From positions 1 to 64,000 of the forward strand of contig JAUJOT010000008.1 in the NCBI GenBank assembly GCA_030447505.1: a stretch of DNA of 64,000 nt, given 5' to 3'. Made by a program: the position numbers and the translations under genes. The notes beneath the pieces are model-generated. The model was not told the origin of the DNA. It was given only the letters and a program-made list of their open reading frames with translations, and searched no databases. Positions 9,400 through 33,452 of the stretch are shown here, piece by piece (within the stretch, counting starts at the first letter, position 1; every line of letters begins with the position of its first letter). Source of the DNA: Solirubrobacteraceae bacterium (lineage in GTDB: Bacteria > Actinomycetota > Thermoleophilia > Solirubrobacterales > Solirubrobacteraceae).

Positions 9400-10962
9400 T
9401 TGTCTTGCCCAATCCGCCAGCGTACGTCGTCTCCGATCCCCGCCCAGCGCACCCGGCGCCGCGCCCTCGCCTTCTTGCTGGCCGTGATGACCGCGCTGGT
9501 CCCGGCGGCCACGGCCGAGGCGGCCCGCAGCATCCCCGTCGGACTCGCGAGCACCAACGATCAGAACCTGCGCACACACGAAAGCCTGCTTGCGATCCGC
9601 TTCGTGCTCGATCGTGATACGAGCATGTATCGATTCATGAGCGGCTTCAAGACGCAGGGCGCCTCGTGGGACCCGCATTCCGGCAGCAAGTGCGGCGGCC
9701 CCGGCAGTGGGTGCTACGGGGCGGGAGACGGCGGCATCGTCAACGCGCGCCTGGTGACCGTCAAGGCCGACGGCACGCCGAACCTCTCGAACGTGCTCGC
9801 CGAGGAGACGCGCAGCGCGAAGGATCGCTACTTCGACTCCAAGAACTCGTACGGCGTCGACGGCATCACGCAGATGATCTTCTCCAGCATGGGAGGCATA
9901 CAGCTGAAGCGGAACACGATGTACGCGATGGTCTACCGCAACACCCACCGTGACCCGGTTTCCAACTTCTTCTCGATCAATTCCCCGACGGTCAAGGAGT
10001 CTGCGGCGGGACCGAACGGCCGCAACAACCTCGATCCGGATGCAGCGGGGGCCATCGCCGGCCTCGATCCCCGCGAGGCCGTCGCCTCGTCGACCAACGG
10101 CGGCGGAAGCTGGAGCTGGGGCCGCCAGGTCGGTCCCTACTTCGGCAGCCCGTCCAGCGACGACGGCACCCGTCTTCCGTGGTATGGGTGGCAGACCTCG
10201 GCTTCCACCAAGCCGCAGGCCAACCAGCCCTACTACCAGTACTGGAACCAGTGCAGCGCCTGCACGCTGACCGCGCGCAACGTCCCCCGCAAGACCACGC
10301 TCACGGAGGCGGGCGGCTACGCGCCGGTCGGTTCCTCGGTCGGCGTGGTAACCGTCAGGAACACCCGAACGGGCCAGATCGGGCGCACCGGGTCGCTCGG
10401 GAGCGGGATCGTCAAGGGCGCGCTGAGCTCGCCGGTCGCGGTGGAGCCGGGGGATACATACGAGATCACGAACACCGGCACGGTCTACCGCTACGAGGCC
10501 GATGCCTTCCTGGTCAAGGTCTTCGGCCTCGGCGCGGGCGCCTTCCCGTTCACCACGGCCGGCAGCGCGGATGCGGCTCAGCTGTTCGCACTGCCCCATC
10601 CGTACTTCGCCGTACCGGAGCCTGTCGTCGCGAGATCACCGCGACGCGTGATTCTCAAGCGGGCAACGCTCATCCTCCGCCGCGCCGCCGCCAGCCGCCG
10701 TAACGCCAGCCGCGTAGGCCGGATGGTGCTCAAGGGCCAGGTCACCGGGCCGCGCGCGCGACCGGGCCTGCGCGTCGCCATCCAGATGCGGCGGCACGCC
10801 GGCGGGTGGCGCACGATCGGGCGTACCGAACTGCGCTCGCGAGGCCGCTTCGTGCTGGACCTGCGCGTGAACGTGCGGCGACCCGGAGATCGGCTGCGGG
10901 TGCGCGCGGCCGCTCCCGGGGCGGGCCGCTCGGTGTCGGTCCGCGTTGCGCTCAAGCGCTGA
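9400..10962 (+). CDS. Secreted protein of unknown function with C-terminal Ig-like domain
   Basis: A 520-aa protein from a TTG start with AAGGA (9386-9390) 9 nt upstream. A signal peptide (ALAFLLAVMTALVPAATAEA) is followed by a large exported domain (LASTNDQNLRTHESLLAIRF, with a Cys-containing loop SGSKCGGPGSGCYG and a CSAC pair) that looks like a beta-rich lectin or jelly-roll type fold. The last 110 residues, rich in Arg and Val, resemble a beta-sandwich linker like the one ending the oxidase at 17170-19755. It may bind the exopolysaccharide made by the neighbours; that is inference from location. No family is recognised. A longer in-frame start at 8974 is unlikely because the signal peptide would be buried. 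Confidence 0.6.
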   Translation: MSCPIRQRTSSPIPAQRTRRRALAFLLAVMTALVPAATAEAARSIPVGLASTNDQNLRTHESLLAIRFVLDRDTSMYRFMSGFKTQGASWDPHSGSKCGGPGSGCYGAGDGGIVNARLVTVKADGTPNLSNVLAEETRSAKDRYFDSKNSYGVDGITQMIFSSMGGIQLKRNTMYAMVYRNTHRDPVSNFFSINSPTVKESAAGPNGRNNLDPDAAGAIAGLDPREAVASSTNGGGSWSWGRQVGPYFGSPSSDDGTRLPWYGWQTSASTKPQANQPYYQYWNQCSACTLTARNVPRKTTLTEAGGYAPVGSSVGVVTVRNTRTGQIGRTGSLGSGIVKGALSSPVAVEPGDTYEITNTGTVYRYEADAFLVKVFGLGAGAFPFTTAGSADAAQLFALPHPYFAVPEPVVARSPRRVILKRATLILRRAAASRRNASRVGRMVLKGQVTGPRARPGLRVAIQMRRHAGGWRTIGRTELRSRGRFVLDLRVNVRRPGDRLRVRAAAPGAGRSVSVRVALKR

Positions 10963-10964
10963 CT

Positions 10965-12488
10965 TCAGCGGGCGAAGAAGCGGGCCGCGAGCAGGCGCGG
11001 CCAGCGCATCGGCGATGCGACGATCATCGCCAGGTAGAGGATGGCGAGTCCCGCCTGCACCGCGATCAGGAGCACGAGCGTGGCACCCGACCCCTGCACG
11101 ACCGGCCGCAGGGCGAGGCCGATCAGCACCGTGAGCAGCCCGATCGGCAGCGCGTACTGCAGCCCGTAGACGGACCAGCTGACGCCGAAGAAGCGGTGCA
11201 CGGTGGCAAAGGCGAGGGCACCCTGTACGGTCACGCCGGCAGCGAAAGCCCAAGCCACGCCGATCGCCGGCCGGACGAGCTCGAACGGGAGCGTCACCGC
11301 CGCCACCATCACGAAGACCCCGAGCGCGACGAGGTTGTTGCGTGAGTTGTAGGACTTCACCTCGACGGCATCGAGCGTGTTGCGCAGCATCAGATATAGC
11401 ACGAACATCCCGGCCGGGGAGACCACCACCCGCACCACCGAAGAAGCCTGCTCGAACTCCGGTCCGAGCCACACCCTCACGGCGATGTCGGCATACAGCA
11501 GCGCCTGGGCGCTGGCGAAGATCGCCACGGTGGTGGCGAACGCCGACAGCTGCGCGACGTACTCCGAGGCCCGCTCGCGGTCCGAGGTCCACAGCTTCGT
11601 GAGCGTCGGGAGCAGCACGAGCCCGAGCGGGACAACCGACAGCGACAGGATGCCGAGGACCTGCTGCCCGGCGCTCAGGTACGCGACGTCTGTCAGCGAG
11701 CCGACGTGCGCAGCCAGGATCGGCACCAGCACGAACAGTCCCACCTGGGCGAGCTCGCCAGGCACACGCCGGCGCCCGTAGACCCACAGCCGTCGGCGTC
11801 CCCGCGGCACGAGCGCGCGGTGGCGCGTGCGCAGCGCGACAGTCAGCGGGCGAACGATGGAAAGCAGCGACAGGATCGCCGTCCCCAATGCCATGTAGAT
11901 GATCAGCCGGTGCACCGGCTCGTCGGGATACAGGGCGACGAGCGCCGGGGGAAGCGCGGCCATCCCGAGGACCTGCAGCAGCCCCGCTTCTCGCAGCCTC
12001 AACAGCCCCCGGAAGTAGCCGTAGGCGAGGTAGAAGAGTGTCGTCGCCGAGAGCAGCAGCACGAAGGGCGGCACGTAAGGCGTCGCATTCGGATCGCCGA
12101 AGAAGAGCGCTGCGGTTGCCGAAGGGACCGCAAGGGTCGCTCCGGCGGCGACGACGACGGCCGCGCCGCAGATCAGAACTGCGCCGGCAACGTAGCCCTC
12201 CGCCGAGGGGTCCCCCTGCCCCCGGGGGAGCGCGAGGTAGCGCGGCAGCCCTCCGATGAGCCCGACCGTGACGATCGGGAACAGCACGGTCACCGCCTGC
12301 TTGACGAGCGAGTATGCGGCGAAGCCCTCGGCCCCCGCCTGCGTGGCAAGCAGGCGCGCGAGCAACAGCCCGCCCATCGCGACGCACGCCGAAGCCAAGA
12401 TCGTGACCGATACGTCGCGGAAGAACGGATGCACGCGCCGCCGCCGGGCGGGGGGAGACTCGCCCGCCTCGTGTCCTTCGGGCCACAT
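10965..12488 (-). CDS. Polysaccharide flippase (Wzx/MOP family)
   Basis: A 507-aa integral membrane protein with about 12-14 hydrophobic helices, starting RVHPFFRDVSVTILASACVA and containing EGFAAYSLVKQAVTVLFPIV, the usual pattern of RfbX/Wzx and MATE-like lipid-linked oligosaccharide flippases. It should move undecaprenyl-PP repeat units across the membrane for the Wzy enzymes. I chose ATG 12488 (AGGA 7 nt upstream); an in-frame extension to 12608 is Arg-rich and unlikely. The stop lies 3 bp from that of the convergent secreted-protein gene. Confidence 0.8.
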   Translation of the reverse strand: MWPEGHEAGESPPARRRRVHPFFRDVSVTILASACVAMGGLLLARLLATQAGAEGFAAYSLVKQAVTVLFPIVTVGLIGGLPRYLALPRGQGDPSAEGYVAGAVLICGAAVVVAAGATLAVPSATAALFFGDPNATPYVPPFVLLLSATTLFYLAYGYFRGLLRLREAGLLQVLGMAALPPALVALYPDEPVHRLIIYMALGTAILSLLSIVRPLTVALRTRHRALVPRGRRRLWVYGRRRVPGELAQVGLFVLVPILAAHVGSLTDVAYLSAGQQVLGILSLSVVPLGLVLLPTLTKLWTSDRERASEYVAQLSAFATTVAIFASAQALLYADIAVRVWLGPEFEQASSVVRVVVSPAGMFVLYLMLRNTLDAVEVKSYNSRNNLVALGVFVMVAAVTLPFELVRPAIGVAWAFAAGVTVQGALAFATVHRFFGVSWSVYGLQYALPIGLLTVLIGLALRPVVQGSGATLVLLIAVQAGLAILYLAMIVASPMRWPRLLAARFFAR

Positions 12489-12676
12489 CGTCACATCCTG
12501 CCCGGTCGCACGGTCGAGAGGCCGGCGCCGCACGCCGAAGAGCTTCGTCGCGCCTATCGCAGCGAATGACGCGCCTCGTGCACGCAGCCGGAGCGGGCCC
12601 CGCGTCACGGCTGGAGTTGAGTCGGCTCGGTGGCGCCGGGACCAGGCGGAGCTCGGGCCAGGCCAACCGAGGGTCG

Positions 12677-14181: not shown

Positions 14182-14277
14182 TGACGGCGGCCATGGGAAT
14201 CTCCCCGTAGGCGGCCATCGGATCTCCCCGCTGGCGGTCGCTGGATCTCCCCGCCCGTGGCCATCGGTTCTCCCCAC
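14182..14277. repeat. IS21 left-end repeat array
   Basis: Four imperfect copies of a 20-25-bp unit of the type GCGGCCATCGGATCTCCCCG lie in tandem. The last (14257-14276) is the perfect inverse of 16911-16930. They are probable binding sites for the IstA transposase. Confidence 0.75.
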
Positions 14278-14346
14278 GATTCTGTCCTGATCGGCCGGTA
14301 CTGACCGGCGCGTCCTGTCATCGACGCGCGTGCGGGAGGGTCCGGC

Positions 14347-15840
14347 TTGAAGAGCTCGGAGGAAGTGATGGAGATCCTGGAGGCGTTTGATTTGACCGGC
14401 ACGCTGCGTGGCGCTGCGGAGCTGGCGGGCTGTGATCACAAGACGGTCGCGCACTGGGTGCGCGCTCGTGACGAGGCCGGCGGCGGGCTGCCCGTGCCGA
14501 CGCGGCCGCGGCCGCGCATCGACGCGTTCGCGGAGAAGATCGAGGAGTGGGTGGACCGGTCGCGCGGGAAGATCCGCGCGGACGCGGCGCATCAGCGACT
14601 GGTCGCGATGGGCTACATGGGTTCGGAGCGCACGACGCGCCGCGCGGTCGCTGAGGCGAAGCGACGGTGGCGCGCCGAGCACGGGCGCCGCACGAGGCCG
14701 TGGGTCGTCGAGCCGGGCTTGTGGATGCAGTGGGACTACGGCGACGGGCCGGTCGTCGAGGGGCGCTCGACGGTGTTGTTCTGCGCCTGGCTTGCGTGGT
14801 CGCGCTACCGCGTCGTGCTGGCGTTGCGTGATCGCACGATGGCGTCGGTGGTGATGGCGCTTGACCGCTCGTTGCGGGCGTTCGGTGGCGCGCCGACGTA
14901 CGCGCTGACTGACAACGAGAAGACGGTGTCGGTTGATCATGTCTGCGGGATCGCGGTCCGCAACGCGACGATCGTGGCGGTTGGCCGCCACTACGGTCTG
15001 ACGATCGCGACGTGCGTGCCGGCGGACCCTGAGAGCAAGGGTGGCTCGGAGGCGACCGTTCGGATCGCCAAGGCCGACCTCGTCCCGACTGATCACAACC
15101 TGCGCGACGCCTACGCGTCCTTCGGCGAGCTTGAGCAGGCGTGCGCCGTGTTCTGTGAGCGCGTCAACACGCGCGAGCACCGGATCACGCGGCGCGCGCC
15201 GGCGGTGATGCTCGCCGAGGAACGCGACAGGTTGCACCGGCTGCCGACGATGGCGCACACGGTCTGCTTCGGTGAGACGCGCAGGGTGTCGTGGCAGTCG
15301 ACGATCAGTGTCGGCGGCGCGCTTTACTCCGTCCCGTCGACGCTCGTCGACGAGCGGGTGTGGGCGCGCGCTGAGGGTGGCAAGCTCGTCGTCGTTTATG
15401 CCGATGGCGAGGCGGGGTCGCGTGAGGTCGCGCGGCACGCGTTGACGACGCCGGGCCAGCCGAGCATCGACCAGCGCCACTACCCGCCCAGGCCTGCGGG
15501 CGCGATCGAGCGCAAGCCGCGCGCGCGCAGCGCCGACGAGGAGGCGTTTCTTGCGATCGGATCGGGCGCGGAGGCGTGGCTGATCGCCGCCGCCGCGGCC
15601 GGCGCGAGCCGGGTGCGGCGCAAGCTCGCCGAAGCCGTCGACCTCGCCAAGCTCCACGGCTCGGGCCAGGTCGACGAGGCGCTGCGGGCCGCGGCGGATG
15701 CCGGGCGCTTCGCTGACGGCGATCTCGCCGCGATCCTCGCCCACCACGACAGCGCGAAGGTGATCGCGTTTCCTGCCAAGGCCAGCGAGCAGCAGTCGCT
15801 GCAGCGCTCCACGGCGGCGTGGGAGGGCTACGGGCGATGA
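14347..15840 (+). CDS. istA: IS21 transposase IstA
   Basis: A 497-aa DDE transposase from TTG with GGGAGGG upstream. The N-terminal helix-turn-helix (about residues 15-45: FDLTGTLRGAAELAGCDHKT then WVR) binds the end repeats. The rve-type catalytic core has WDYGDG (D130), ALTDNEK (D189) and the KGGSE segment (E235) as probable metal ligands. The C-terminal region binds DNA. The stop overlaps the next ATG. It works with the IstB ATPase. The length is normal for the family and no lesion is seen. Confidence 0.92.
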   Translation: MKSSEEVMEILEAFDLTGTLRGAAELAGCDHKTVAHWVRARDEAGGGLPVPTRPRPRIDAFAEKIEEWVDRSRGKIRADAAHQRLVAMGYMGSERTTRRAVAEAKRRWRAEHGRRTRPWVVEPGLWMQWDYGDGPVVEGRSTVLFCAWLAWSRYRVVLALRDRTMASVVMALDRSLRAFGGAPTYALTDNEKTVSVDHVCGIAVRNATIVAVGRHYGLTIATCVPADPESKGGSEATVRIAKADLVPTDHNLRDAYASFGELEQACAVFCERVNTREHRITRRAPAVMLAEERDRLHRLPTMAHTVCFGETRRVSWQSTISVGGALYSVPSTLVDERVWARAEGGKLVVVYADGEAGSREVARHALTTPGQPSIDQRHYPPRPAGAIERKPRARSADEEAFLAIGSGAEAWLIAAAAAGASRVRRKLAEAVDLAKLHGSGQVDEALRAAADAGRFADGDLAAILAHHDSAKVIAFPAKASEQQSLQRSTAAWEGYGR

Positions 15841-16067
15841 CCGACTACTACTCCAGCATCCGTGTGCTGATCGATCCCGAGCAGTCTGACCCGTTGCCCG
15901 ACGGGGGCCGCCGCCAAGATGTCAGCGTGATCCTCACCGACGCTTCGCGCGGCGACCGGGCGTTGCGCCCGGCGGCGGTCGCGCTGTTGGTCTGCCAAGC
16001 CAGGGCACTGGCGTTCGAGTTGCTCGAGGTCGCCGAGCACGCCGACCGCATGAGGACACCGCGATGA
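15837..16067 (+). CDS. Small IS21 accessory ORF between istA and istB
   Basis: A 76-aa protein (MTDYYSSIRVLIDPEQSDPL...) overlapping istA by ATGA and istB by ATGA, so it is translated as part of the transposition operon. I do not recognise a domain. Its conserved position suggests it is coding and not a gap. Its function is unknown; it may link translation of istA to istB. Confidence 0.6.
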   Translation: MTDYYSSIRVLIDPEQSDPLPDGGRRQDVSVILTDASRGDRALRPAAVALLVCQARALAFELLEVAEHADRMRTPR

Positions 16068-16846
16068 GCGTCAAGACGCCGATCGCTCCGCCGCTGCCCG
16101 CCGAGATCGACCGGCTGCTGCGCCGGCTGCGGATGCCCTACGTTCGCCACGCGGCCCCCGAGGTCCTCGCGACAGCCAAGTCGCAGCGCTGGGATCCCGC
16201 CGAAGTCCTGCGCGTCCTTCTGGTCGAGGAGGCGGCCGGTCGTGACCGCGCGACGATCCGGATGCGTCGCCGAGCGAGCGGGTTGCCGGCCGGCAAGACG
16301 TTCGACGCGTGGAAGGAGAACGCCTCACCGATCCCACAAGCCACCCAGCAGGCGCTCAGGACGCTGGAGTGGGTCGCCCGGGCGGAGAACCTCTGCATCT
16401 GCGGACCGTCGGGGACCGGCAAGAGCCACCTCGCCGAAGCGCTCGGGCACGCCGCGATCGACGAGGGCAAGACCGTCGCGTGGCACACACTGGAGAGCCT
16501 CGCGACGCTGCTGCGACGCCACCGCGCCGACGACAGCGTGAACAAGGCGATCGGCCGGCTGATCCGCGCCGACCTGATCCTGATCGATGACGTCGGGATG
16601 CTTCCCGTCGCCGCCGACGCCGCTGAAGCGTTGTTCCGCGTCGTCGACGCCGCCTACGAGAAGCGCTCGATCGCCCTGACCAGCAACATCCACCCCGCCG
16701 GCTTCGACGAGCTGATGCCCAAGACCCTCGCCGCGGCGACCGTCGACCGGCTGCTGCACCACGCGCATGTGCTGCTGACCGACGGGACGGACTCCTACCG
16801 CTTGGCGCAAGCAACCGCCGGCAAGGGGGTGAGGCCCCTGACCTGA
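16064..16846 (+). CDS. istB: IS21 helper ATPase IstB
   Basis: A 260-aa AAA+ protein related to DnaC. Walker A is GPSGTGKSH (residues 114-122), Walker B LILIDDVG (171-178), and a sensor-like SNIHP segment follows. It assembles on target DNA and activates IstA, directing insertion. The length and motifs are complete. The start overlaps the stop of the middle ORF. Confidence 0.93.
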   Translation: MSVKTPIAPPLPAEIDRLLRRLRMPYVRHAAPEVLATAKSQRWDPAEVLRVLLVEEAAGRDRATIRMRRRASGLPAGKTFDAWKENASPIPQATQQALRTLEWVARAENLCICGPSGTGKSHLAEALGHAAIDEGKTVAWHTLESLATLLRRHRADDSVNKAIGRLIRADLILIDDVGMLPVAADAAEALFRVVDAAYEKRSIALTSNIHPAGFDELMPKTLAAATVDRLLHHAHVLLTDGTDSYRLAQATAGKGVRPLT

Positions 16847-16910
16847 CGCGCGCAGCGCGCTATCGCCGCTCGCCTCGCCCTACGGGCTCGGCTTCGCGAC
16901 GACAGCGCGC

Positions 16911-17005
16911 TGGGGAGAACCGATGGCCACCAGTGGGGAGACAACGTGTCCGCCAATGGGGGAACCGATGGCCGTAGCTGGGGAGAAACCGATGGCCGTT
17001 GACAC
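16911..17005. repeat. IS21 right-end repeat array
   Basis: Four inverted-orientation copies of the left-end motif: TGGGGAGAACCGATGGCCAC at 16911-16930, then variants ending in GGGGAGAAACCGATGGCC and TTGACA at the terminus. The flank 17006-17169 beyond it holds the second CCGCA and no confident gene. Confidence 0.75.
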
Positions 17006-17169: not shown

Positions 17170-19755
17170 ATGAGGTGTCGGCTAGCCTGTTCGCTCGTGG
17201 CCGGTGCGGCCGGAAGGGGTAGTCGGATCGTGGCTGAGTGTCTTTGTCGTCGGGCTTGCCTTGTCGTGGCGTTCGCGCTGGTTGGGGCGTTGGTGCTCGC
17301 GGGTGGCGCGGCGGCTGGTCCGGTCGGTAGCGGCAGCCTTGGCGTGCGGGGGTTGAGCGAGCGTGAGCTGCGTCGCTTCGAGCAGCGGGTGTTGGGTCCG
17401 GGGCATGGGGCGCAGCATGCGCGGGCGCGGCGCGCGGCGCGAGAGCGGTTGCGGCATGGGGCTGCGGGGGCGCGTTCGTCGCGCACGCGCTCGGGCTCTG
17501 CTGGGTTTGCGAGGGCGGCTGTCGGTCCGCTTGATGGGGTTGGTCGGTGGGGCGCGCCGTTCTCGATTCCGGTGATGGCGATCCATGCGGCGACGTTGCC
17601 GACTGGCAAGGTGATGTGGTTTTCGTATCCGAAGAACCCGAGCCCGCGCCACGGCGGTGACGGGGCGCCGAACACCTCGCAGGCGTGGTTGTGGGATCCG
17701 GCGACGGGTCAGAGCAAGCGCGTCGATCCGCCGTTGTGGCGTGATCCCGCGGATGGGGTGACGAAGCGGGTGAACCTCTGGTGTGCGGGGCAGACGTTCA
17801 CCGCCGATGGGCGGCTGGTCGTGTTCGGCGGCAACCTGGCGTACTCGTCGGGGTCGACGGACTGGAAGGGCCTGAACAAGATCTACACGTTCAACCCGTT
17901 TGACGAGACGTGGACGGAGCAGCCCGATATGCGCCACGGGCGCTGGTATCCGACGGGCGTGCGGATGGCCGACGGGCGGATCGCGATCATCAGCGGGCTG
18001 GATGAGAGCGGGGGGCGTGGTGCCAAGAACCCCGACGTGGAGATCTTCACGCCGTCGGCGGGCATGAACGGTCGCGGCAGCGTGTCGCTGCTGACGACGC
18101 TCGGCGGCACTGGCAAGCCGCCGCTGGGCGGGTTGTATCCGCACATGTTCGCGATGCCCAGCGGACGCACGTTCGTCGCCGGGCCGTTTGCGGTCGACAC
18201 CTGGTTTATGCATGATCCCGGGGCCTCGAACCGTTGGGGCTGGACGGACGCGGCGAACACGGCGCGCAGCCGGCTGTATGGCGCCGCAGTCCTGATGCCG
18301 GGCGGGCCGGGCGGCTCGACACGGGTCATGCAGCTCGGCGGCTCGGCGCCGCCGACGGTGACCTCGACGACGACCGACTTGGCGGTCAGGAGCACCGAGG
18401 TCTTTGACGAGGCCAGTCCGGGTTGGCGGGCGGCGTCTGCGATGAACGTCGGGCGCGGCCATCACAACACCGTGCTGCTGCCGGACGCCTCGATGGTCAC
18501 CGTCGGCGGGGGCGTGGGCATCAGAAACGGTGATCCGTGGGAGGCCGACCCCGCGCAGCGCCAGGTCGAGCTGTGGAATCCCGCGACGGCGAGCTGGCGG
18601 CTGGGGGCCGCGCAGGCCGAAAGCCGCGCCTATCACTCCACCGCGCTGCTGCTGCCCGACGGTCGCGTGATCTCTGCCGGCGACGACGTCAACGGTGGCA
18701 CCGACCGTGACACCGCCGAGATCTACGAGCCGCCCTACCTGCACAAGGGCGCGCGGCCGGTCATCGACCGCGCGCCGGCATCGATGCCGATGGGCGCCGC
18801 CTTCGAGGTCGCCGCGTCCGGTGCCGCCGCAACGCGGGCCGCACTCGTGGCACCCGGCGCCACCACCCACGCCAACGACATGAACCAGCGCGTCGTGACC
18901 CTTCCGCCTCCGCAAGCGCGTCCGGGCGGGCGCCTGCTGCTGCAGCTGCCCGCAGACGCCGACGCCGCCACGCCCGGCTACTACATGCTGTTCCTGCTCA
19001 GCGACCAAGGCGTGCCATCGGTGGCGAAGTTCATCCGCATCGGAGCCGCCGCCTCGGGCGAGCTTGAGCCCTACCAGGCTGGGCCGCCGGCGGGCGGGCC
19101 ACAGCCGCCGCCGGCGGGCGGGTCGTCGTCGTCGCCCGCCGCTGGCCTGTTCACGGCGAAGCTCGCGTTGGCGCGGGCGACGATCCTGCGCCGTGAACGG
19201 ATGCTCGACGTGCTGGCGCCGATTACGAGCCTGGCGTCGGGCAGCGCCCGAGTGGAGCTGCACGCGGCGAATCGCCGCTACCGCTTCACGGCGCCGGTCA
19301 ACTCGCGCGACGGTCGCATCCGCTTCCGCAAGCGGATTCCCAAGGCGCAGGCCAATCTGGGCATGGGCATCATCACGATCGCCTACCGCGGTGATGCCGA
19401 CACGCGCCCGCAGACGGTACGCCTGCGCGCCGCCTCGCAGCAGGCGAGGCTGCAGCTCGAGCGCCCGACGATCACGGGCGGGCGCCTGCGGGCGTCGGGC
19501 ACGGTCACGAAGCGCGCGCGTGGCGTCGTGCGCGTGCAGATCGAGTACGTCGTCGACGGCAAGACGACGACGCTGCAGTACCTGGCACCGATCGACGACG
19601 GGCGCTGGTCGCTGAACCAGCAGCTGTCACAGAGCGCGCGCAACGCGATCGCGCGGCGGAAGGGCACGGTGCACTCCTACACGCTGTTCACCGGCTACTA
19701 CCCGCGTCGGATCCGCGGAGAGATGCGCTCCTTCCAGGTTCTCGGACCGCGCTGA
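17170..19755 (+). CDS. Secreted galactose-oxidase-like copper radical oxidase
   Basis: An 861-aa protein. A signal peptide (about residues 25-50) precedes a kelch-type seven-bladed propeller and a DUF1929-like C-terminal beta domain. Residues expected for a Cys-Tyr radical copper site are all present: Cys205 (LWCAGQ), Tyr260 (RWYPT), Tyr488-His489 (RAYHST) and His567 (THANDMNQR). The family oxidises primary alcohols of sugars or glycans to aldehydes with O2, giving H2O2; streptomycete GlxA is a relative acting on a cell-surface glycan. After a Gly/Pro-rich linker (about 635-655) there is an extra roughly 200-residue beta-rich domain. It sits among exopolysaccharide genes, so a surface glycan is a plausible substrate. 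The start codon is less certain; a Val further in would also keep the signal peptide. Confidence 0.85.
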   Translation: MRCRLACSLVAGAAGRGSRIVAECLCRRACLVVAFALVGALVLAGGAAAGPVGSGSLGVRGLSERELRRFEQRVLGPGHGAQHARARRAARERLRHGAAGARSSRTRSGSAGFARAAVGPLDGVGRWGAPFSIPVMAIHAATLPTGKVMWFSYPKNPSPRHGGDGAPNTSQAWLWDPATGQSKRVDPPLWRDPADGVTKRVNLWCAGQTFTADGRLVVFGGNLAYSSGSTDWKGLNKIYTFNPFDETWTEQPDMRHGRWYPTGVRMADGRIAIISGLDESGGRGAKNPDVEIFTPSAGMNGRGSVSLLTTLGGTGKPPLGGLYPHMFAMPSGRTFVAGPFAVDTWFMHDPGASNRWGWTDAANTARSRLYGAAVLMPGGPGGSTRVMQLGGSAPPTVTSTTTDLAVRSTEVFDEASPGWRAASAMNVGRGHHNTVLLPDASMVTVGGGVGIRNGDPWEADPAQRQVELWNPATASWRLGAAQAESRAYHSTALLLPDGRVISAGDDVNGGTDRDTAEIYEPPYLHKGARPVIDRAPASMPMGAAFEVAASGAAATRAALVAPGATTHANDMNQRVVTLPPPQARPGGRLLLQLPADADAATPGYYMLFLLSDQGVPSVAKFIRIGAAASGELEPYQAGPPAGGPQPPPAGGSSSSPAAGLFTAKLALARATILRRERMLDVLAPITSLASGSARVELHAANRRYRFTAPVNSRDGRIRFRKRIPKAQANLGMGIITIAYRGDADTRPQTVRLRAASQQARLQLERPTITGGRLRASGTVTKRARGVVRVQIEYVVDGKTTTLQYLAPIDDGRWSLNQQLSQSARNAIARRKGTVHSYTLFTGYYPRRIRGEMRSFQVLGPR

Positions 19756-19860: not shown

Positions 19861-21051
19861 TCAACGTCCGTTCAGGAGACGCTCGTAGTGCTGGATGAGC
19901 TGGCGGCCGATCACCGTGGCTCCGAACCGGGCCGCGGTCGCGGCGTGCACCGCCTCCCGCGTCGGAAGCTGTCCACGAGCGGCTGCATCGATGGCGGCCG
20001 CTAGCGCGACGGGGTCGCGCGGTGTCACCAGCCGGCCAAACCGGGCGTCGAGCAGCTCGGAGTACGGGTAGAGGTCGAACGCAAGGACCGGCACGCCAAG
20101 GCTGAGCGCCTCGAACAGCGAGTAGCCCCACTCCTCGACGAGGTAGGGAGCTGCCAGGACGTCGACCTCCGCGGCCAAGTGGTCGAGATAGCGCGGGCGC
20201 GGCACCCGGCCAAGCAGCTCGACCTCGATGCCGGCCGCCCGCGCGCGCTCGACGCCCTGGGCGATCTGCCGGCTGGGGCTACCCACGAGGATTACCCGCA
20301 GTGGCCGGGCTTCGACAAAGGGGAGCGCGTCCAGCAGGTAGCGCAGCCCCTTCCACGGCCGGTCGAGCGGGTCGGCGCAGAACGCCACCCGGAGCGCCTC
20401 GCAGCGCGAGGGAATCGGTGGGCGCGGGAGAAGATGGAGAGCTGGAGGAACGCAGTCCGCGCGCAGACCGCGGGCGGCCAGCCAGCTGGCCGCCGTGGCG
20501 GTACTGGCGAGGATCAGTTCGGCACGGTTGTATCCGAGCCGATCGCTCGCGTGGACCTGAACCTGGTAGGTGACGCGCGCGCCGTAGGCGACCGGTGCGC
20601 GAAGTGGGAGCGGCAACGCGGCGCCCACACCGCCGGTACCGTAGGTGGCGCCACCGAGAAGACGGTCGCGCAGCGTCGCTCGCGCGGGGTGAAACCAGGC
20701 CTGCACGACGACCGGCACCGTGCGGGGCAACAACGCCGCCGAGCCGGGGCTGAACGAGTGGACGATGTCGACCGGTCGCCGCTCGAGCGCATCGGCCCAC
20801 CGCCGGCTCCACGCGAGCTTTGTGGCGAGAAATGCCGCGCTGCGCACACGCGGACGACGAAGCGGCCGCGACAGCGGCTGGAGCCGGGTCACGCTCTCGC
20901 GGAGGGCAGCCGCCCGCCGGGGAAGTTCGATCTCGGGCTCCGCGAACAGGGTGACCTCAACCCCGGCCGCCTGCAGGCCGATCGCCGTGTCGACCGTTCC
21001 GTGCTCGACGCCCGGCGACGAGTTCGAGAATATCCCGACGCCGATCCTCAA
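19861..21051 (-). CDS. Glycosyltransferase family 4 (group 1)
   Basis: A 396-aa GT-B enzyme. The N-terminal acceptor domain begins MRIGVGIFSNSSPGVEHGT. The donor domain has FCADPLDRPWKGLRYLLDAL, the strand RVILVGS, and the E-x7-E region VEEWGYSLFEALSLGVPVL. It should transfer a sugar from a nucleotide donor to the lipid-linked repeat unit on the cytoplasmic face. The donor is not predictable. It lies 56 bp after the Wzc-type kinase gene in the same direction. Confidence 0.82.
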   Translation of the reverse strand: MRIGVGIFSNSSPGVEHGTVDTAIGLQAAGVEVTLFAEPEIELPRRAAALRESVTRLQPLSRPLRRPRVRSAAFLATKLAWSRRWADALERRPVDIVHSFSPGSAALLPRTVPVVVQAWFHPARATLRDRLLGGATYGTGGVGAALPLPLRAPVAYGARVTYQVQVHASDRLGYNRAELILASTATAASWLAARGLRADCVPPALHLLPRPPIPSRCEALRVAFCADPLDRPWKGLRYLLDALPFVEARPLRVILVGSPSRQIAQGVERARAAGIEVELLGRVPRPRYLDHLAAEVDVLAAPYLVEEWGYSLFEALSLGVPVLAFDLYPYSELLDARFGRLVTPRDPVALAAAIDAAARGQLPTREAVHAATAARFGATVIGRQLIQHYERLLNGR

Positions 21052-21107
21052 GACGACCGCCGAAGGGGTGGCAGGTGGTCGTTCGTCATTGAGGCGGGCT
21101 GGGTCGT

Positions 21108-22685
21108 CTAGGGGCGGGCGTGTTTGTGGGGCAGGGGGCCGGTGCCGTTGGTGTCGTCGGTGGCGGTGAGCGCGGTGGGGCTTGTTGGGGCATTGGTTCC
21201 GGTCGGGTAGTAGCCCTTGTAGTCGTGGTCTTTGAGGAGCACGGGCGCGCGGTTGAGGACGACCCCGACGATGTTCGCGTGCGCGTTGCGTAGTTGCTCG
21301 ACGGCAGCGGTCAGGATCCGACGTTCGGTGTTCTGGGCGTCGACGACGACCAGCGTCGCGTCTGCCCTGGCGGCGATCGTTGACGCGTCGGCGGCGATCG
21401 TGACCGGCGAGGTGTCGATCAGGATGTAGTCGGCCTCTTCCTCGAGCTGTGAGATGAGTGCCGAAACACCGCTGCTGCCGGCGATGATCGATCCGGGCAG
21501 CGCGATCTGTCGGCCGGCGGCGAGCAACCGCACGCCGGGGTCCGCGGTCTGCTGGAGCAGGTCGACGGGATTTGTTGATCGGGCGATCGCGGTCGTGACA
21601 CCGTCGTCGCTTGGCAGCCCGAAGCGCTCGTGCAGCGCCGGACGGCGCAGGTCGAAGTCTACGACGATCACGTCGGAGTCGCCGAGCGCGAGCGCTTCGG
21701 CGAGATTGGCCGCGACGGTCGTCTTGCCGTTGCCGGCCAGCGCGCTGGTGATCGCGACGACGCGCAGCTGCTCGCCGGCGTCGCGATGCTGCAGGTTTGA
21801 GCGCAGAAACTGAAACGCCTCGAGGAACCGCTGCTGCTCCCAGTCGGCCTGCTGTTGCATCCTGAGCTTGTACGCCGCGCGCGGCCCGACCGGGATCCTC
21901 GCGATGATCGGCGCTCCGGCGATCTGCGCGATCTCCTCCTCGTTGGTGATCCGCCTGTCGAGGCGGTGCAGCAGCAGCGAGAGCAGGACGCCGAGGACCA
22001 ACCCCAGCCCGAACCCGATGCCCGCGTTGCGGACGGGCTTGGGGGCACTGCGATCACGCGGACGGGTGGCCGGCTGGACAAGCTCGACGTCGCCCTCCGC
22101 CAAGCGTTTTTCGACCTTCAGCCGCTCGGCGCGGGCGCCCAGCTCGCGCGCAACCTCGCTTTGCGGCGGCGTCACGAGCAGCTGGTCGCCGACGGCGTCG
22201 ATGACCCTCTGGATGCGCCGCTGGGCGTTCTCGCGCCGCAACGCGATCACCTCCAACGCGAACGTGTTGGCCAGCCGGACGGCTTCGGCGCGCGTCGGGC
22301 CCTGCGCGGTGACCGTGACGATGTCCGTCTGCCCCTCGGGCGCCACATCAACGCGCTTGCGCAGCGCCTCGGGCGTCGCGGAGCTGCCCAAGCGCTGCTT
22401 GACGCGCACCGCCACCGAGTCCAGCGAAGCCAGCGCCAGGTTCGTCGCGGCGACACGCTCCGGAGCCCTCGAGGGATCGGGCAACGGATCGTTGGGATCG
22501 ATTCGCGGAACCGGCTCCTCGGCGCGAAACAACAGCTTCGCGCGAGCCTCAAAACGCTCCTCCTGCTGCGTCGACCAGCCAAACGCAAGACCCGCCGCAG
22601 CCGCCGCAATCACGAGTATCAGCCCCGCCCTACGGGCGACAATCGACAAAACCGTCGGCAGATCCAACGACTGCGGAGAACTCAT
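21108..22685 (-). CDS. Wzc-type chain-length regulator and BY-kinase
   Basis: A 525-aa protein. The Wzz domain has an N-terminal TM helix (about 20-38) and a second TM (about 221-240). The cytoplasmic kinase has Walker A ALAGNGKTT (K321), Walker A' VIVVDFDLRRPA (339-350) and Walker B YILIDTSP (420-427), and a short Tyr cluster DYKGYY near the C-terminus as autophosphorylation sites. It controls polymer length and export by cycles of autophosphorylation. I chose ATG 22685; the in-frame extension to 22955 overlaps the upstream glycosyltransferase and lacks homology. No Wzb-type phosphatase gene is seen nearby. Confidence 0.87.
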   Translation of the reverse strand: MSSPQSLDLPTVLSIVARRAGLILVIAAAAAGLAFGWSTQQEERFEARAKLLFRAEEPVPRIDPNDPLPDPSRAPERVAATNLALASLDSVAVRVKQRLGSSATPEALRKRVDVAPEGQTDIVTVTAQGPTRAEAVRLANTFALEVIALRRENAQRRIQRVIDAVGDQLLVTPPQSEVARELGARAERLKVEKRLAEGDVELVQPATRPRDRSAPKPVRNAGIGFGLGLVLGVLLSLLLHRLDRRITNEEEIAQIAGAPIIARIPVGPRAAYKLRMQQQADWEQQRFLEAFQFLRSNLQHRDAGEQLRVVAITSALAGNGKTTVAANLAEALALGDSDVIVVDFDLRRPALHERFGLPSDDGVTTAIARSTNPVDLLQQTADPGVRLLAAGRQIALPGSIIAGSSGVSALISQLEEEADYILIDTSPVTIAADASTIAARADATLVVVDAQNTERRILTAAVEQLRNAHANIVGVVLNRAPVLLKDHDYKGYYPTGTNAPTSPTALTATDDTNGTGPLPHKHARP

Positions 22686-22779
22686 CGCCCACCGAGAATA
22701 GGCCCTGGAGGACAGCAGCAGAACCGCTCCTAACCAATCGACCGGGAATCCCGCCCGATGCCCCCGATCCAGAAGCTCG

Positions 22780-23757
22780 TCATCGAACGCGCCGCCCGGC
22801 GGCGCGACGCAGCACCCCTTTGAGGGTCCCGACGCCATAGCCCAGGTGCAGAGCGGCGAAGCACGCCGCGACGGAGGGGGTGAGCTCGGGCTCGACCGAG
22901 TGGGAGACCCGGCGCGCGGCGCAGCACGCGGCGGCACCGTACGTCGCCGCGACACCCCCGGTCGCCCATCGCACGCGCCGCGAGAACAGCGCCGCCCCCG
23001 TCAGCAGCCCGAGCCCACCGACGAAAGCTGCCGGGGCGAGGTGGTGGACTCGCAGGAAGTCCGGGTGGGCCTGGATGACGCGTACGCGGGCCTCGCCGTA
23101 ATTGCGGTACTGGCGGTAGGCGCTCCTCCACGAGGGACGCGTGACGTAGTGGAACCGCATGTCGGTGTCGAGCAGGATCCGGTGGCCCGCACGCCGCAAG
23201 CGCCAGTTGAGCTCTTCGTCCTCGCCGTAGTTCATCACGGGATCGAAGCGCCCCACGGCGTCGAGCTCGCGGCGCCGATAGATCCCGCACTGAACGGTGT
23301 CGACGAACGACCGCGCACTCGTGCCCGCGTACTCGCTGCCGCCAACACCGAAGCGGCTCGTCCGGGCGAGCGCCACGGCTCGGCCGAACTTCGTTTCGCC
23401 TTCCTGCACCGGACGGCCGCCGACGCACGCCACGTCATCGCCGCCGTTCTCGAACGCCGCCGCCGCGAGCCGCAGGAAGTCGTGCTCTGGGTAGCCGTGA
23501 GCGTCGATCTTCGCGACGAGATCCGCCTCGCAGATCTCGAGCCCCACGTTCAGGGCGGCCGGCAGATTGAGCCGGCGCCCATCCGATATCACGACCAGCC
23601 GCGGATCGCGCTCCGCGCGCGCGCGGCAGATCTCGACGGTCCGATCCGCCGACCCGCCGTCGATGACGATGACGCGCAAACGGTCCGGCGGATAATCCTG
23701 GCCGAGCGTATTGTCGAGGCAGCGTCCGATGTACTCCTCCTCGTTGAAGGTCGACAC
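22780..23757 (-). CDS. Glycosyltransferase family 2
   Basis: A 325-aa GT-A enzyme. VSTFNEEEYIGRCLDNTL begins the nucleotide-binding fold, VIDGGSADRT and KIDAHGYPE carry the DxD-like metal site, and NYGEDEELNWRLRRAG is the ED acceptor-site motif. One or two hydrophobic segments near the C-terminus (APAAFVGGLGLLTGAAL) may attach it to the membrane. The only usable start is GTG 23757, which cuts the first beta strand: in-frame codons upstream read LPSIDVL and then a TAG. The true initiation codon is therefore uncertain. Confidence 0.82.
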   Translation of the reverse strand: MSTFNEEEYIGRCLDNTLGQDYPPDRLRVIVIDGGSADRTVEICRARAERDPRLVVISDGRRLNLPAALNVGLEICEADLVAKIDAHGYPEHDFLRLAAAAFENGGDDVACVGGRPVQEGETKFGRAVALARTSRFGVGGSEYAGTSARSFVDTVQCGIYRRRELDAVGRFDPVMNYGEDEELNWRLRRAGHRILLDTDMRFHYVTRPSWRSAYRQYRNYGEARVRVIQAHPDFLRVHHLAPAAFVGGLGLLTGAALFSRRVRWATGGVAATYGAAACCAARRVSHSVEPELTPSVAACFAALHLGYGVGTLKGVLRRAAGRRVR

Positions 23758-23808
23758 GAGGACGTCGATCGAAGGCAGATGGTTGGAGGGGGCTGGCGGT
23801 GAGATGGG

Positions 23809-25176
23809 CTATGGGCTCCGAGGGTCGGGGGCCGCCTCGCGAGCCGGCACACCGTACTGAGCAAGCAGCCAGGCGACGCCGAAAGCGGCCCAGAACGCGC
23901 GGTTGTCGTTGATATCGCCCGAGAACTGCACCGCGAACAGGTTGAACAGAAACAGACCCGCGAAGATGTACAGCAAGCGCCTGTCGTGCGGGCCCGACGC
24001 GTTCCAGGCGCGCTTGAAGAGCATCAGTATCAGCATCAGCACGGATACGGCCAAGGCCAAGGGGGCGACGATCCCGTTCTCGCTCCAGAGCTCGAGGAAG
24101 ATGTTGTGCGGGTACTTCTCCTCCTGGTTGAGCAGGACGTAGCTGTACAGGAAGAAGCCCCCGCTGCCGAAGCCCGTGAGCGGGTCGCGGTCGATCAGCT
24201 CGAACGCCTGCCGGTAGAGAATCGCGCGGCCGTCCTCCTGGAGTGACTTCGTCGGGTTCTTGACCGCCTCCTCCAATCGCTCGCGCGACGTCTCCGGCAG
24301 GGACACGAAGGGAAAGACGGCGATCGCCGCGGCGACGAGCGCGATGACCGGGACGAGCTGCCGGGGGTTGCGCAGTGCGGACGCAGCGATGACGCAGGCC
24401 ACGGCGAAGCCGAAGCTGAGGATCGGGCCGCGCGAGCCGATGCTGGCGCTGACGGCCAAGATGGCGATCGAAGCCGCGACAGCGGTCACGGACAGATTCC
24501 GCCCGAGCCCCAGCAGCCGCGGCGCAAGCAGGAGGACCAGCGCGCCGCTGCACAAGAGCCGCGAGGTGAAGATCGTGTTCTTGTGGCCTCCGAACTCGAC
24601 GCGGCCGGTCTGCTCGACGGAACCTGGATTCAGCAGCGAGACGACCGCGCCGAAGCCGGCAAGTGCGACGATCGCGATCAGCAGCAGCTTCAGGTCGCGC
24701 CGATCCTCGATGATGAAGAAGGGGGCAAGCGCGGCCAGGGCCGTCAGGCTGAAGTACTTCGCGACCTTCTCGAGGCCATAGTCATAGACCTGGCCGGGCG
24801 TGTACGTGAGGCTGATCGCCATCAGAATCCCGATCACGACCATCGGGACGAGCATCAGCATCGGCGGGTGCCGCACGCGGCCGCTGATCAGTCGTATGAA
24901 GCAGACGAGCGCGAGCAGCACGCCGAGCACGGCCGTGATGTCGAAGGGCAGGGACCGCAGGAGCGCCTCTCCCTTGAAGATCCCCACATAGATGTATGCG
25001 ACGAAGAGGACCGCTGGATAGCGCGCCAGCAGAATCAGCGCGATGATCCCGACAGGCACGACGAACGCGAGCGGCCCCAGCGCGACCGCTGAGCACGCCG
25101 CCAGCACGGAGGTTGCGGCGGCCAGCGCCGTGACCTTCAGCGTGGCATCGGGCCACGGGGGATCTAGGTGCCTCAT
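23809..25176 (-). CDS. O-antigen ligase/polymerase (Wzy type), second copy
   Basis: A 455-aa membrane protein with about 12 TM helices. The Wzy_C signature region contains SIGSRGPILSF, then the large loop with ILYRQAFELIDRDPLTGFGS and EEKYPHNIFLELWSENG, the HN[ILM] pattern typical of the family. It probably polymerises or ligates lipid-linked repeat units. The start ATG 25176 is preferred over an extension to 25386 that lies upstream of the first TM helix and is Arg/Ser-rich. Unlike the copy at 2660-4459, it is intact. Confidence 0.82.
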   Translation of the reverse strand: MRHLDPPWPDATLKVTALAAATSVLAACSAVALGPLAFVVPVGIIALILLARYPAVLFVAYIYVGIFKGEALLRSLPFDITAVLGVLLALVCFIRLISGRVRHPPMLMLVPMVVIGILMAISLTYTPGQVYDYGLEKVAKYFSLTALAALAPFFIIEDRRDLKLLLIAIVALAGFGAVVSLLNPGSVEQTGRVEFGGHKNTIFTSRLLCSGALVLLLAPRLLGLGRNLSVTAVAASIAILAVSASIGSRGPILSFGFAVACVIAASALRNPRQLVPVIALVAAAIAVFPFVSLPETSRERLEEAVKNPTKSLQEDGRAILYRQAFELIDRDPLTGFGSGGFFLYSYVLLNQEEKYPHNIFLELWSENGIVAPLALAVSVLMLILMLFKRAWNASGPHDRRLLYIFAGLFLFNLFAVQFSGDINDNRAFWAAFGVAWLLAQYGVPAREAAPDPRSP

Positions 25177-25435
25177 TCGTTTCTTTCTACAGGAGTGGGC
25201 CCCTTTGAGGCGCGATATTCTCCACCTGCGGTCGGCGGGGCTTCCCGTCCCCGCGGCGCGATCAACCCCGCTCAGCTCAACGAGGAAGGCGTCAGTGGAC
25301 AAGAAGGCGATCTTGCTCGGCAACCGCGCGCAGCTCCAGAGGCTCGGATTTCTCCGCCCTGCCTGATCGCCCATCGACGCTGCCATCCACCCACCTTCGC
25401 GGCCTCCCCGGGTCGTCTTCGTCCAGAGCAGCCGG

Positions 25436-26536
25436 ATGGCGCACCATCCGCGCCAGCACTATCGGCTCGCCGCTGCCCTCGCCGACGCCGGCTACGACGT
25501 CACGACGCTGGCCGCGCCAGACCTGACATCGGGTCACGAGGACGCCGTGCCGGTCGCGTATCTGCCGATCAGGCGCAACCGGCTGACTCGGATGATCAGC
25601 GGTCCACTGACCATCGGGCGGGCACTCGCGCGCCGGCCGGACGTGCTGTATCTCGTCAGCCTGGATCTGCTGCCGTGGGGCGCGCTCGTGCGCAAGCTCC
25701 GTCGTTGCAGCGTGGTCTACGACAGCAACGACGAGTACGACACGTACATGCTCATCAAGGAGTGGCTCCCGGTGCGCGTGCGCCCGCTGCTTCAACGCCT
25801 CGTGCGGTGGCTCGAGCCATGGCTCGCGCGACAACTGGATGGCGCCACGACGGCTCTTCCGGCGACGCAGGAGAAGTTCGAGCGGGCTGGTGTGAAGTCG
25901 ACGCTCGTACGCAACTTCCCGCCCGCCTTCCTCATCGGGCAGACCCGGCGCGACGGGCACTACGAGTTCGACGTCCTCGTAGGCGGCAGCCTGCCGGAGG
26001 ACCAGATGCTGCTGCTGGCCGAGACGGCCGCCCGCGTCGAGGAGATCCTTGGGCGCCCGGTGCGGTGGCTTGTCGTGGCGCGCAACTACGACGACCACGA
26101 GAAGCGCCTACTCGAGGGCGCGCTCGTCGCCAGCGGGCTGCGCGATGACTTCACCCTGCGCTACAACCTGCCGTTCCCCGAGATGCAGCGGATGATGCAG
26201 AGCTCGAAGATCGGGTTTGTCCCTTATCCAGGCGCCGTCAACTATGCCGACCGAATCCCGATCCGGATCTTCGAGTACATGGCGGCCGGCCTGCCGTTCG
26301 TCGCGAGCGATCTCCCCACGACTGCTCAGTTCACGGCGGAACATGGTGTCGCCGTCCTCACGCCCGCCGGCGACGTCGAAGCCTTCGCGCGGGAGATCGC
26401 GTCGCTGCTGGACGATCCGCACCGGCTGCAAGAGATGAGCGCACGGGGACCCCAGGTGGTCCTCGAGCGCTACAACTGGGAGATCGAGTCGCGCAAGCTC
26501 GTCGACACGCTCGCACGGGTCGCCCCGCTCGACTGA
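25436..26536 (+). CDS. Glycosyltransferase family 4 (group 1), start uncertain
   Basis: A 366-aa GT-B enzyme. HHPRQHYRLAAALADAGYDV, SVVYDSNDEYDTY and the donor-domain phrase PIRIFEYMAAGLPFVASDLP identify it. In-frame codons before ATG 25436 read RVVFVQSSR, which is the usual first beta strand of such enzymes, but between the TGA at 25364-25366 and 25436 there is no ATG, GTG or TTG in frame. Either the start is non-standard (an ATC is available), the start was lost, or the protein lacks its first strand. It is divergent from the polymerase gene at 23809-25176. Confidence 0.78.
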   Translation: MAHHPRQHYRLAAALADAGYDVTTLAAPDLTSGHEDAVPVAYLPIRRNRLTRMISGPLTIGRALARRPDVLYLVSLDLLPWGALVRKLRRCSVVYDSNDEYDTYMLIKEWLPVRVRPLLQRLVRWLEPWLARQLDGATTALPATQEKFERAGVKSTLVRNFPPAFLIGQTRRDGHYEFDVLVGGSLPEDQMLLLAETAARVEEILGRPVRWLVVARNYDDHEKRLLEGALVASGLRDDFTLRYNLPFPEMQRMMQSSKIGFVPYPGAVNYADRIPIRIFEYMAAGLPFVASDLPTTAQFTAEHGVAVLTPAGDVEAFAREIASLLDDPHRLQEMSARGPQVVLERYNWEIESRKLVDTLARVAPLD

Positions 26537-26746
26537 GCTCAGCCGCTCGCGGCTCCGATCGTCGCCGCGTCCGCGCGCGCCCGCGACCCTGCGGGATTCC
26601 GCATCACGCCCTGCTAAGGCTGGCAGAGTTCTCGTGCCCTCGCGCAGACCGGATCCAAACGGCTCCCCTGTACGTGTCCTTGCGGTTACTGTCGCTCTCG
26701 ATTCCCGCGATACAACCTGAGATCGAAGGACGACTCGGGAGCACGA

Positions 26747-27586: not shown

Positions 27587-27669
27587 GTCACGACAGCCCG
27601 GCGACGAAGTCGCACCGAGCGAGCTACTGTAATCCCGGTGCATCGGCATCGCGCTGGGACGATCGATCC

Positions 27670-29762: not shown

Positions 29763-29830
29763 CGCGTTATTCTAGGCGTCGTGCCACGAAGCCGGCTTTC
29801 GGTCCACTTGCGCCGCGGCGAGCAGGTCGT

Positions 29831-31349: not shown

Positions 31350-33452
<2,103 letters not shown>

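Follow-up and report, generated by a model that had tools for sequence, protein, structure and literature searches.

Among the closest described systems, GlxA works with CslA in glucan synthesis and forms a complex with this glucan synthase (PMC11022532), the galactose-oxidase-like gene fbfB of Stigmatella has a role in fruiting and adjoins a divergent glycosyltransferase gene (PMC3543389), and a second-shell Trp marks enzymes of the GlxA/aldehyde-oxidase type, with consecutive Trp and Tyr residues (W509-Y510) in FgrAldOx (PMC13094651). In the type IX system of Bacteroidetes, C-terminal domains carry unrelated cargo to the cell surface (PMC4804311, PMC4560394). The gene considered here (positions 17170 to 19755, + strand) lies in a 64,000-nucleotide stretch of DNA, termed the window, from contig JAUJOT010000008.1 of a Solirubrobacteraceae bacterium (assembly GCA_030447505.1). 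Members of the Solirubrobacteraceae are frequent in soil and have seldom been cultured. The reading that we favour, with moderate confidence and from sequence comparisons and structural models, is of a secreted radical copper oxidase that would combine a site of the glyoxal-oxidase/GlxA type, a Pro/Gly linker and a lineage-specific, surface-retaining double beta-sandwich. The enzyme half is ordinary for its kind; the novelty lies in the C-terminal sandwich pair, referred to as the module.

The open reading frame (ORF), of 861 amino acids (aa), was present as described in an earlier sequence-only reading, and its positions 205, 260, 488, 489 and 567 read C, Y, Y, H and H, the copper-site residues named there. 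A phmmer search of PDB sequences returned a galactose oxidase (GalOx) as the best match (8tx5, E = 2e-41, residues 116 to 624), and in this alignment, from which the GalOx residue numbers were counted, C205, Y260, Y488/H489 and H567 were paired with C228, Y272, Y495/H496 and H581. Given this E value and the position of all five residues opposite copper or cofactor residues of GalOx, the correspondence is not due to chance. Pfam matched GO-like_E_set (PF09118, 1.3e-21) and Glyoxal_oxid_N (1.6e-10), and the kelch propeller and Early-set domain that characterize AA5-like radical copper oxidases were recovered from Pfam and from the structural model. Two start codons were considered, of which GTG 17230 is more likely than ATG 17170 because a sequence resembling a ribosome-binding site (AAGGGG) lies upstream of it and the putative signal peptide, as judged by eye, begins there. 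The gene has the following features.

17230 to 17313, + strand: likely signal peptide VAECLCRRACLVVAFALVGALVLAGGAAA with a GTG start; hydrophobic stretch, AAGGGG about 10 nucleotides upstream of the GTG, putative start and cleavage site
17515 to 19041, + strand: predicted radical copper oxidase, AA5-type kelch propeller plus Early-set domain, residues 116 to 624 (phmmer, Pfam, model)
17782 to 17784, + strand: C205, cysteine of the predicted Cys-Tyr cofactor; opposite GalOx C228, conserved in 17/17
17944 to 17949, + strand: W259-Y260, second-shell Trp beside the cofactor Tyr, like GlxA W288; 17/17, with the L109-GlxA alignment
18631 to 18636, + strand: Y488-H489, predicted copper ligands; opposite GalOx Y495/H496, 17/17
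18754 to 19041, + strand: GO-like Early-set domain (Pfam PF09118)
18868 to 18870, + strand: H567, predicted copper ligand; opposite GalOx H581, 17/17
19054 to 19134, + strand: Pro/Gly/Ser-rich linker, from sequence; similar linkers precede many other modules
19159 to 19443, + strand: module, beta-sandwich 1 (AlphaFold, pLDDT 96); homologous to sandwich 2
19444 to 19743, + strand: module, beta-sandwich 2, ending FTGYYPRRIRGEMRSFQVL 3 residues before the stop codon (AlphaFold); C-terminal position in relatives

The five copper and cofactor residues were invariant in all 17 aligned oxidases, namely the window protein, two paralogues encoded in the same genome and 14 relatives belonging to the order. 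This alignment does not include L119 or L122, which is partial, and the search for related oxidases scored at most 9 candidates per genome. The two paralogues, C7 and C12, are further PF09118 genes whose ends differ. An AlphaFold model of the catalytic part, built from five sequences, had a pLDDT of 70.7 and a pTM of 0.82, with mean pLDDT values of 68 to 79 for the ten-residue blocks containing the five site residues and W259. This model matched AA5-type crystal structures at Z scores of 36 to 41 (41.0 to 9g43, 39.9 to 1gof and 36.4 to 9n3u), while all other matches listed scored 25 or below. The sequence-only reading had proposed such a structure prediction as a check, together with a search for a copper chaperone; the latter detected three SCO1-SenC matches in the genome, one of them partial. 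SCO1-SenC proteins also serve cytochrome oxidase. Identification of the product as a secreted radical copper oxidase is, thus, supported by sequence and predicted fold.

The residue directly preceding Y260 is W259, which was invariant in the 17 aligned oxidases. When a relative sharing the RWYPT motif (L109) was aligned to GlxA, the wild type read RWYPT and two entries with W288A in their titles read RAYPT, indicating that W259 is the counterpart of GlxA W288. The second-shell aromatic residue of AA5_2 enzymes, Trp290 of galactose oxidase, was not found in the window protein, this position being paired with E279 beside a gap in the phmmer alignment (sequence alignment only). The active site, therefore, looks glyoxal-oxidase/GlxA-like rather than galactose-oxidase-like, and the protein is probably a glyoxal-type radical copper oxidase, its activity being a prediction. 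The description of a galactose-oxidase-like copper enzyme in the sequence-only reading was correct as to a radical copper oxidase (phmmer, Pfam, fold and residues) and needs revision as to the type of active site. As the second-shell Trp is of the GlxA/aldehyde-oxidase type, galactose residues are not the most obvious substrate to propose; oxidation of small aldehydes or alcohols with release of hydrogen peroxide (H2O2) appears likelier than cross-linking of a polymer. The protein shares with GlxA equivalogs the second-shell Trp right before the cofactor Tyr and is, judged by sequence, not one of them: its score with the NCBIfam GlxA equivalog model NF052501 was 194.4 bits, below the curated cut-off of 800. 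Coupling to a cslA glucan synthase gene was not seen in the window, where an IS21-like element lies upstream, a convergent GT4 glycosyltransferase gene downstream and the nearest GT2 gene (22780 to 23757) on the opposite strand.

The sequence-only reading had noted an extra C-terminal beta-rich domain, and this was borne out as a high-confidence predicted double beta-sandwich: residues ~656 to 861 were modelled by AlphaFold as two beta-sandwiches of ~100 residues each, with a short helix ahead of the penultimate strand (pLDDT 96.1, pTM 0.89, 38 sequences). The two halves proved homologous in an hhalign comparison (61 columns, probability 93.5%, E = 2e-7 for this single comparison). The alignment of 38 sequences consisted of the window's module and 37 of 42 matches, one duplicate, one sequence with a 19-residue tail and three fragments having been dropped, and contained 29 invariant columns; 15 columns were invariant in a broader alignment of 47 of the 48 modules extracted, and a TG...RGE motif is conserved at the module end. 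In module numbering, K9, R14, R98, T186-G187 and G195 are among the invariant residues, and R194 and E196 vary hardly at all. No Pfam or NCBIfam family matched below an E value of 0.05 for four modules (the window's and three others), and a search of PDB sequences with the module profile gave nothing better than E = 0.46; a distant kinship of its fold with the C-terminal domains of type IX secretion would be compatible with these results. A fold name for the tandem module was considered and rejected, as Foldseek searches with the sandwich pair gave query-normalised TM-scores of no more than 0.36 among the matches listed. A single sandwich resembles adhesin, immunoglobulin (Ig) and fibronectin type III (FnIII) repeats (best match 6xi3, Z = 10.4); since many Ig/FnIII domains are alike in this respect, the resemblance gives no clue to function. 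Literature searches, from whose coverage subscription journals were mostly absent, detected nothing on the module or on the retention of enzymes at the surface of Solirubrobacteraceae, and this ~200-residue double beta-sandwich is apparently without an earlier description.

Modules were extracted from 48 proteins of relatives and of the window's own genome. All 48 modules were C-terminal, with no more than 3 residues following in 41 and no more than 19 in any, and many were preceded by Pro-rich linkers. A strongly hydrophobic stretch (value of at least 1.8) was present within 250 residues of the start of the open frame in 36 of these proteins. Of the 47 host parts, 30, for the most part longer ones, were scanned against Pfam, and domains were detected in 29 of them. 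The hosts included subtilase, trypsin, M36, reprolysin, amidase_2, GDSL, multicopper oxidase and lactonase enzymes; FG-GAP, RCC1, PD40, DUF5122 and SBBP/kelch propellers; a beta-helix; and one further radical copper oxidase. Two proteins (L073 and L094) consisted of little more than a signal peptide, a linker and the module. The window's genome, in which all 25 candidates were scored, has two copies, on the oxidase and on a subtilase. On this sequence evidence, the module is a C-terminal piece reused on many secreted proteins and specific neither to the oxidase nor to its locus. The tail was rejected as an integral part of the enzyme, since the module is also carried by unrelated proteins and 16 of the 18 oxidases whose tails were read either end without a tail or have a different one.

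Profile searches detected the module in at least 4 of 396 genomes of the phylum, all of them Solirubrobacteraceae, and in at least 29 of the 146 family genomes searched, 8 of these 29 having only weak, partial matches (best E above 1e-20). The three genomes with the most matches had at least 21, 15 and 10, and modules of nearly full length accounted for 21, 10 and 9 of these, respectively. A search with a single sequence matched at least 19 of 399 genomes of the class, two of them outside the family and weakly. All per-genome counts are minimum values, and a genome without a match may still have the module, as at most 7 candidates (phylum and class) or 21 candidates (family) were scored in each. 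Two conserved peptide patterns, which capture the well-conserved form and would miss divergent modules, were scanned against 84,980 species genomes and detected 37 loci, labelled as Solirubrobacteraceae or Solirubrobacterales, Patulibacter, Candidatus Siliceabacter maunaloa and one 'Actinomycetota bacterium' assembly; no paper was found for 'Siliceabacter' in the literature searched.

The window's module was nearest to a copy on an SBBP/kelch protein from a genome of the same genus (79% identity, pairing support 96/78) and next to a module on an FG-GAP protein (78%), the set of three being supported at 97/94. In the oxidase tree, which has long branches (L106) and an open backbone, the window protein paired with its relative L108 (99/98), whose tail is different. 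The same-genus genome with the 79% module also contains a related oxidase fragment at a contig edge, which is 50% identical and has a different tail. Inheritance of the tail along with the oxidase was, therefore, rejected. Among the oxidases examined, one other of this kind (L114) carries a module, from a distant clade, and the two oxidase-module fusions look like separate events. Two adjacent genes of genome G103 (L070:8271-8888 and 10735-11352) carry identical modules on a PD40 propeller and on a 306-residue protein, as if from a recent duplication or conversion. The disagreement of the module and oxidase trees, the differing tails and the identical modules on different hosts indicate that the module appears to move between hosts. 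In five other oxidases (L108, L110, L116, L120 and L123), the module is replaced by other beta-rich-looking tails, often ending, by eye, like R.RA.DA.GN.S....F. The tail of the C7 oxidase has a similar look, and own-genome matches to it were found at C7 and at one further place (52%).

The module was more positive than its host in 39 of the 43 proteins whose host part had 150 residues or more (+8.3 versus -2.2 per 100 residues), and in the window protein it has a net charge of +27 compared with 0 for the catalytic part. A positive charge would suit an anionic wall or capsular polymer. In the mechanism that we favour, copper would be bound through Y260, Y488, H489 and H567, the C205-Y260 cofactor would form with W259 shielding it, and an aldehyde or alcohol would be oxidised outside the cell with H2O2 given off, as residues and fold suggest; the module would be a general, exchangeable end-piece of the secreted proteins of Solirubrobacteraceae, holding the oxidase at the cell surface by non-covalent attachment to wall or capsular polymer. 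The module is probably, then, a surface-retention or sorting piece, a function suggested by its sequence and occurrence. One such module would define a candidate set of surface proteins in Solirubrobacteraceae genomes and could be used as a tag, while the oxidase would add a glyoxal-type copper site in a bacterial enzyme besides GlxA, with exchangeable tails.

Several observations weigh against this combined reading. In the phmmer search, galactose oxidases (2e-41) scored ahead of GlxA (8.5e-35) and of the glyoxal oxidase 9n3u (5e-17); the overall score being nearest to galactose oxidases, the glyoxal-type assignment rests on the second shell. Position 259 is Tyr in one of four relatives on viral contigs and Trp in the other three, a same-genus homologue outside the alignment (L183) seems by eye to be without the cofactor cysteine, and the catalytic model is of middling confidence at its pLDDT of 70.7 from 5 sequences. 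The module itself is absent from 16 of the 18 oxidases, indicating that it is not needed for catalysis, and 4 of the 43 modules are acidic, all in genome G103, so that charge alone is not the rule. The C-terminal position could merely reflect the way in which the module is copied. Finally, no conserved neighbour gene, and thus no sign of dedicated machinery, was found at 35 module loci and two stretches of the window's own genome. Candidates for a conserved partner beside module genes were rejected, as cross-genome clustering yielded only antisense shadows of modules and stretches of chromosome common to several genomes, for instance a recR/dnaX-like region found in three of them (names by eye, 30 largest clusters).

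A tentative extension of surface retention, which we hold to be possible rather than probable, is that the module is the address tag of a hitherto undescribed protein display system of Solirubrobacteraceae. With this tag, unrelated secreted proteins, up to tens of them in one genome, would be retained at the cell surface or sorted there, and newly acquired enzymes, this copper oxidase among them, would gain it by domain exchange.

The sequence-only reading had placed the gene inside a Wzx/Wzy cluster and had proposed that the oxidase cross-links the secreted polymer. The features next to the gene are as follows.

about 14188 to 16998, + strand: IS21-like element with inverted terminal repeats; istA 14347 to 15840, istB 16064 to 16846 (sequence matches, termini)
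19861 to 30532, no single strand assigned: exopolysaccharide genes for GT4, Wzc-like protein, GT2, Wzy, GT4, sugar transferase, epimerase, aminotransferase and nucleotidyltransferase (Pfam, NCBIfam)

The exopolysaccharide locus is real: the surroundings encode two Wzy_C proteins (2660 to 4459 and 23809 to 25386), Bac_transf, GT4 and GT2 glycosyltransferases, a Wzc-like P-loop NTPase, an epimerase and a DegT aminotransferase, as well as the nucleotidyltransferase. No Pfam or NCBIfam model matched the 'Wzx' ORF (10965 to 12608), whose label reflects a multi-spanning look only, and the oxidase gene stands alone. The IS21-like element stops ~170 to 230 bp upstream of it, and the next gene downstream, for a glycosyltransferase (19861 to 21051), is convergent; because of these two flanks the oxidase gene appears not to share an operon with the exopolysaccharide genes. 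The element being right upstream, the oxidase promoter has possibly been changed. An elongation factor G gene (31350 to 33452) lies just past the exopolysaccharide locus, and an elongation-factor-G-like gene is also near the oxidase of L122, probably by coincidence.

Neighbours were compared at 16 other oxidase loci, including the C7 paralogue of the same genome and leaving out L106 and L121, with 1 to 6 neighbours each and 40 genes in all. Pfam detected a glycosyltransferase (GT2) or Wzy-like neighbour at four of these (L111, L112, L114 and L115). The sister sequences L111 and L112 have a Wzy-like gene 31 to 41 bp away on the same strand, the match being below the Pfam cut-off for L111 and barely above it for L112; the other two have a GT2 neighbour. 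Since a tblastn search with 12 window proteins gave matches at only 2 of the 18 oxidase loci and overlooked Wzy-like genes that Pfam detected, the Pfam count was utilized. Linkage of these oxidases to exopolysaccharide genes is recurrent, not general. That the oxidase acts on the polymer of the neighbouring Wzy-type locus, with the aldehydes formed cross-linking this polymer, is a doubtful proposal: it draws on the position of the gene within the locus, on the four loci above and on the complex of GlxA with CslA (PMC11022532), and is countered by the 12 of 16 loci without such a neighbour, including that of L108, the closest full-length relative, which lies near Ku and MMPL genes, by the isolation of the gene behind the IS21-like element and by the GlxA-type Trp, with Glu opposite Trp290. 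The cross-linking role is, thus, weakly supported.

An unlikely alternative to simple retention is that the module is a sorting signal for a dedicated export or anchoring machinery, comparable to the cargo domains of type IX secretion and maybe cleaved on arrival. The few residues following most modules, the size of the cargo sets (21 or more in one genome), the unrelated nature of the cargoes and the conserved TG...RGE end motif would all fit such a signal, against which stand the lack of a conserved neighbour gene or of any machinery found at the module loci. The genome encodes two sortases, yet the module is without an LPXTG-like tail, the window protein ending in a beta-strand 3 residues before the stop codon rather than in the LPXTG motif, membrane helix and charged tail of a sortase substrate. 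It is improbable that the module serves purely as a stalk or Ig-like spacer and binds nothing, as the generic Ig/FnIII-like fold and the adhesin repeat as nearest single-domain match are outweighed by the high conservation and C-terminal position, which are unlike a spacer, and by the linker that already precedes the module.

Variant and viral-contig relatives were also observed. L183 (1640 to 4066, + strand, genome G400) is GlxA-like and keeps RWYPT, YH and H, with an apparent Gly (LFGSHQT) at the cofactor-cysteine position; it is possibly a natural variant without the Cys-Tyr cross-link. Galactose-oxidase-like genes of ~683 to 690 aa were present on contigs filed as viral, L167/L169 (IMGVR_UViG_3300016464_000180) and L170 (3300020161_000075), and an alignment indicated that all five copper-site residues are kept. 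By eye, the gene adjacent to L167 looks like one for a phage structural protein; a phage-borne radical copper oxidase would, if true, be unusual. In IMG/VR contigs L165/L166, a 919-aa galactose-oxidase-like protein adjoins what look by eye like a type II topoisomerase subunit and a glucanase.

Returning to surface retention of a glyoxal-type oxidase as the favoured reading, the window protein can be set against five known systems. With galactose oxidase of Fusarium (1GOF, AA5_2) it has in common the fold and the five copper and cofactor residues, and galactose oxidases gave the top sequence score among solved structures; the two differ in that Trp290 lies opposite E279 and Arg330 opposite P318 (phmmer, near gaps). 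With GlxA of Streptomyces lividans (4UNM) it shares the fold (Z = 40), the copper site and the Trp before the cofactor Tyr (W288 and W259, respectively), whereas the window gene has no coupled glucan-synthase gene and its product has the added module. FgrAldOx of Fusarium (9N3U, AA5_1) has the consecutive Trp-Tyr in common with a protein that also matches Glyoxal_oxid_N; the sequence match is weaker (5e-17), and FgrAldOx is described with WSC domains where the window protein has the module (PMC13094651). The large adhesion protein repeat 6xi3 is alike as a single beta-sandwich (Z = 10.4, 2.3 Å over 90 residues) but has 9% identity and is a tandem repeat of an extending region, whereas the module is a terminal cap. 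The C-terminal domains of type IX secretion would work in a like manner as C-terminal beta-sandwiches on unrelated secreted proteins (PMC4804311, PMC4560394); the module differs from these in having two sandwiches, ~200 residues, no significant Pfam match and hosts belonging to the Actinomycetota.

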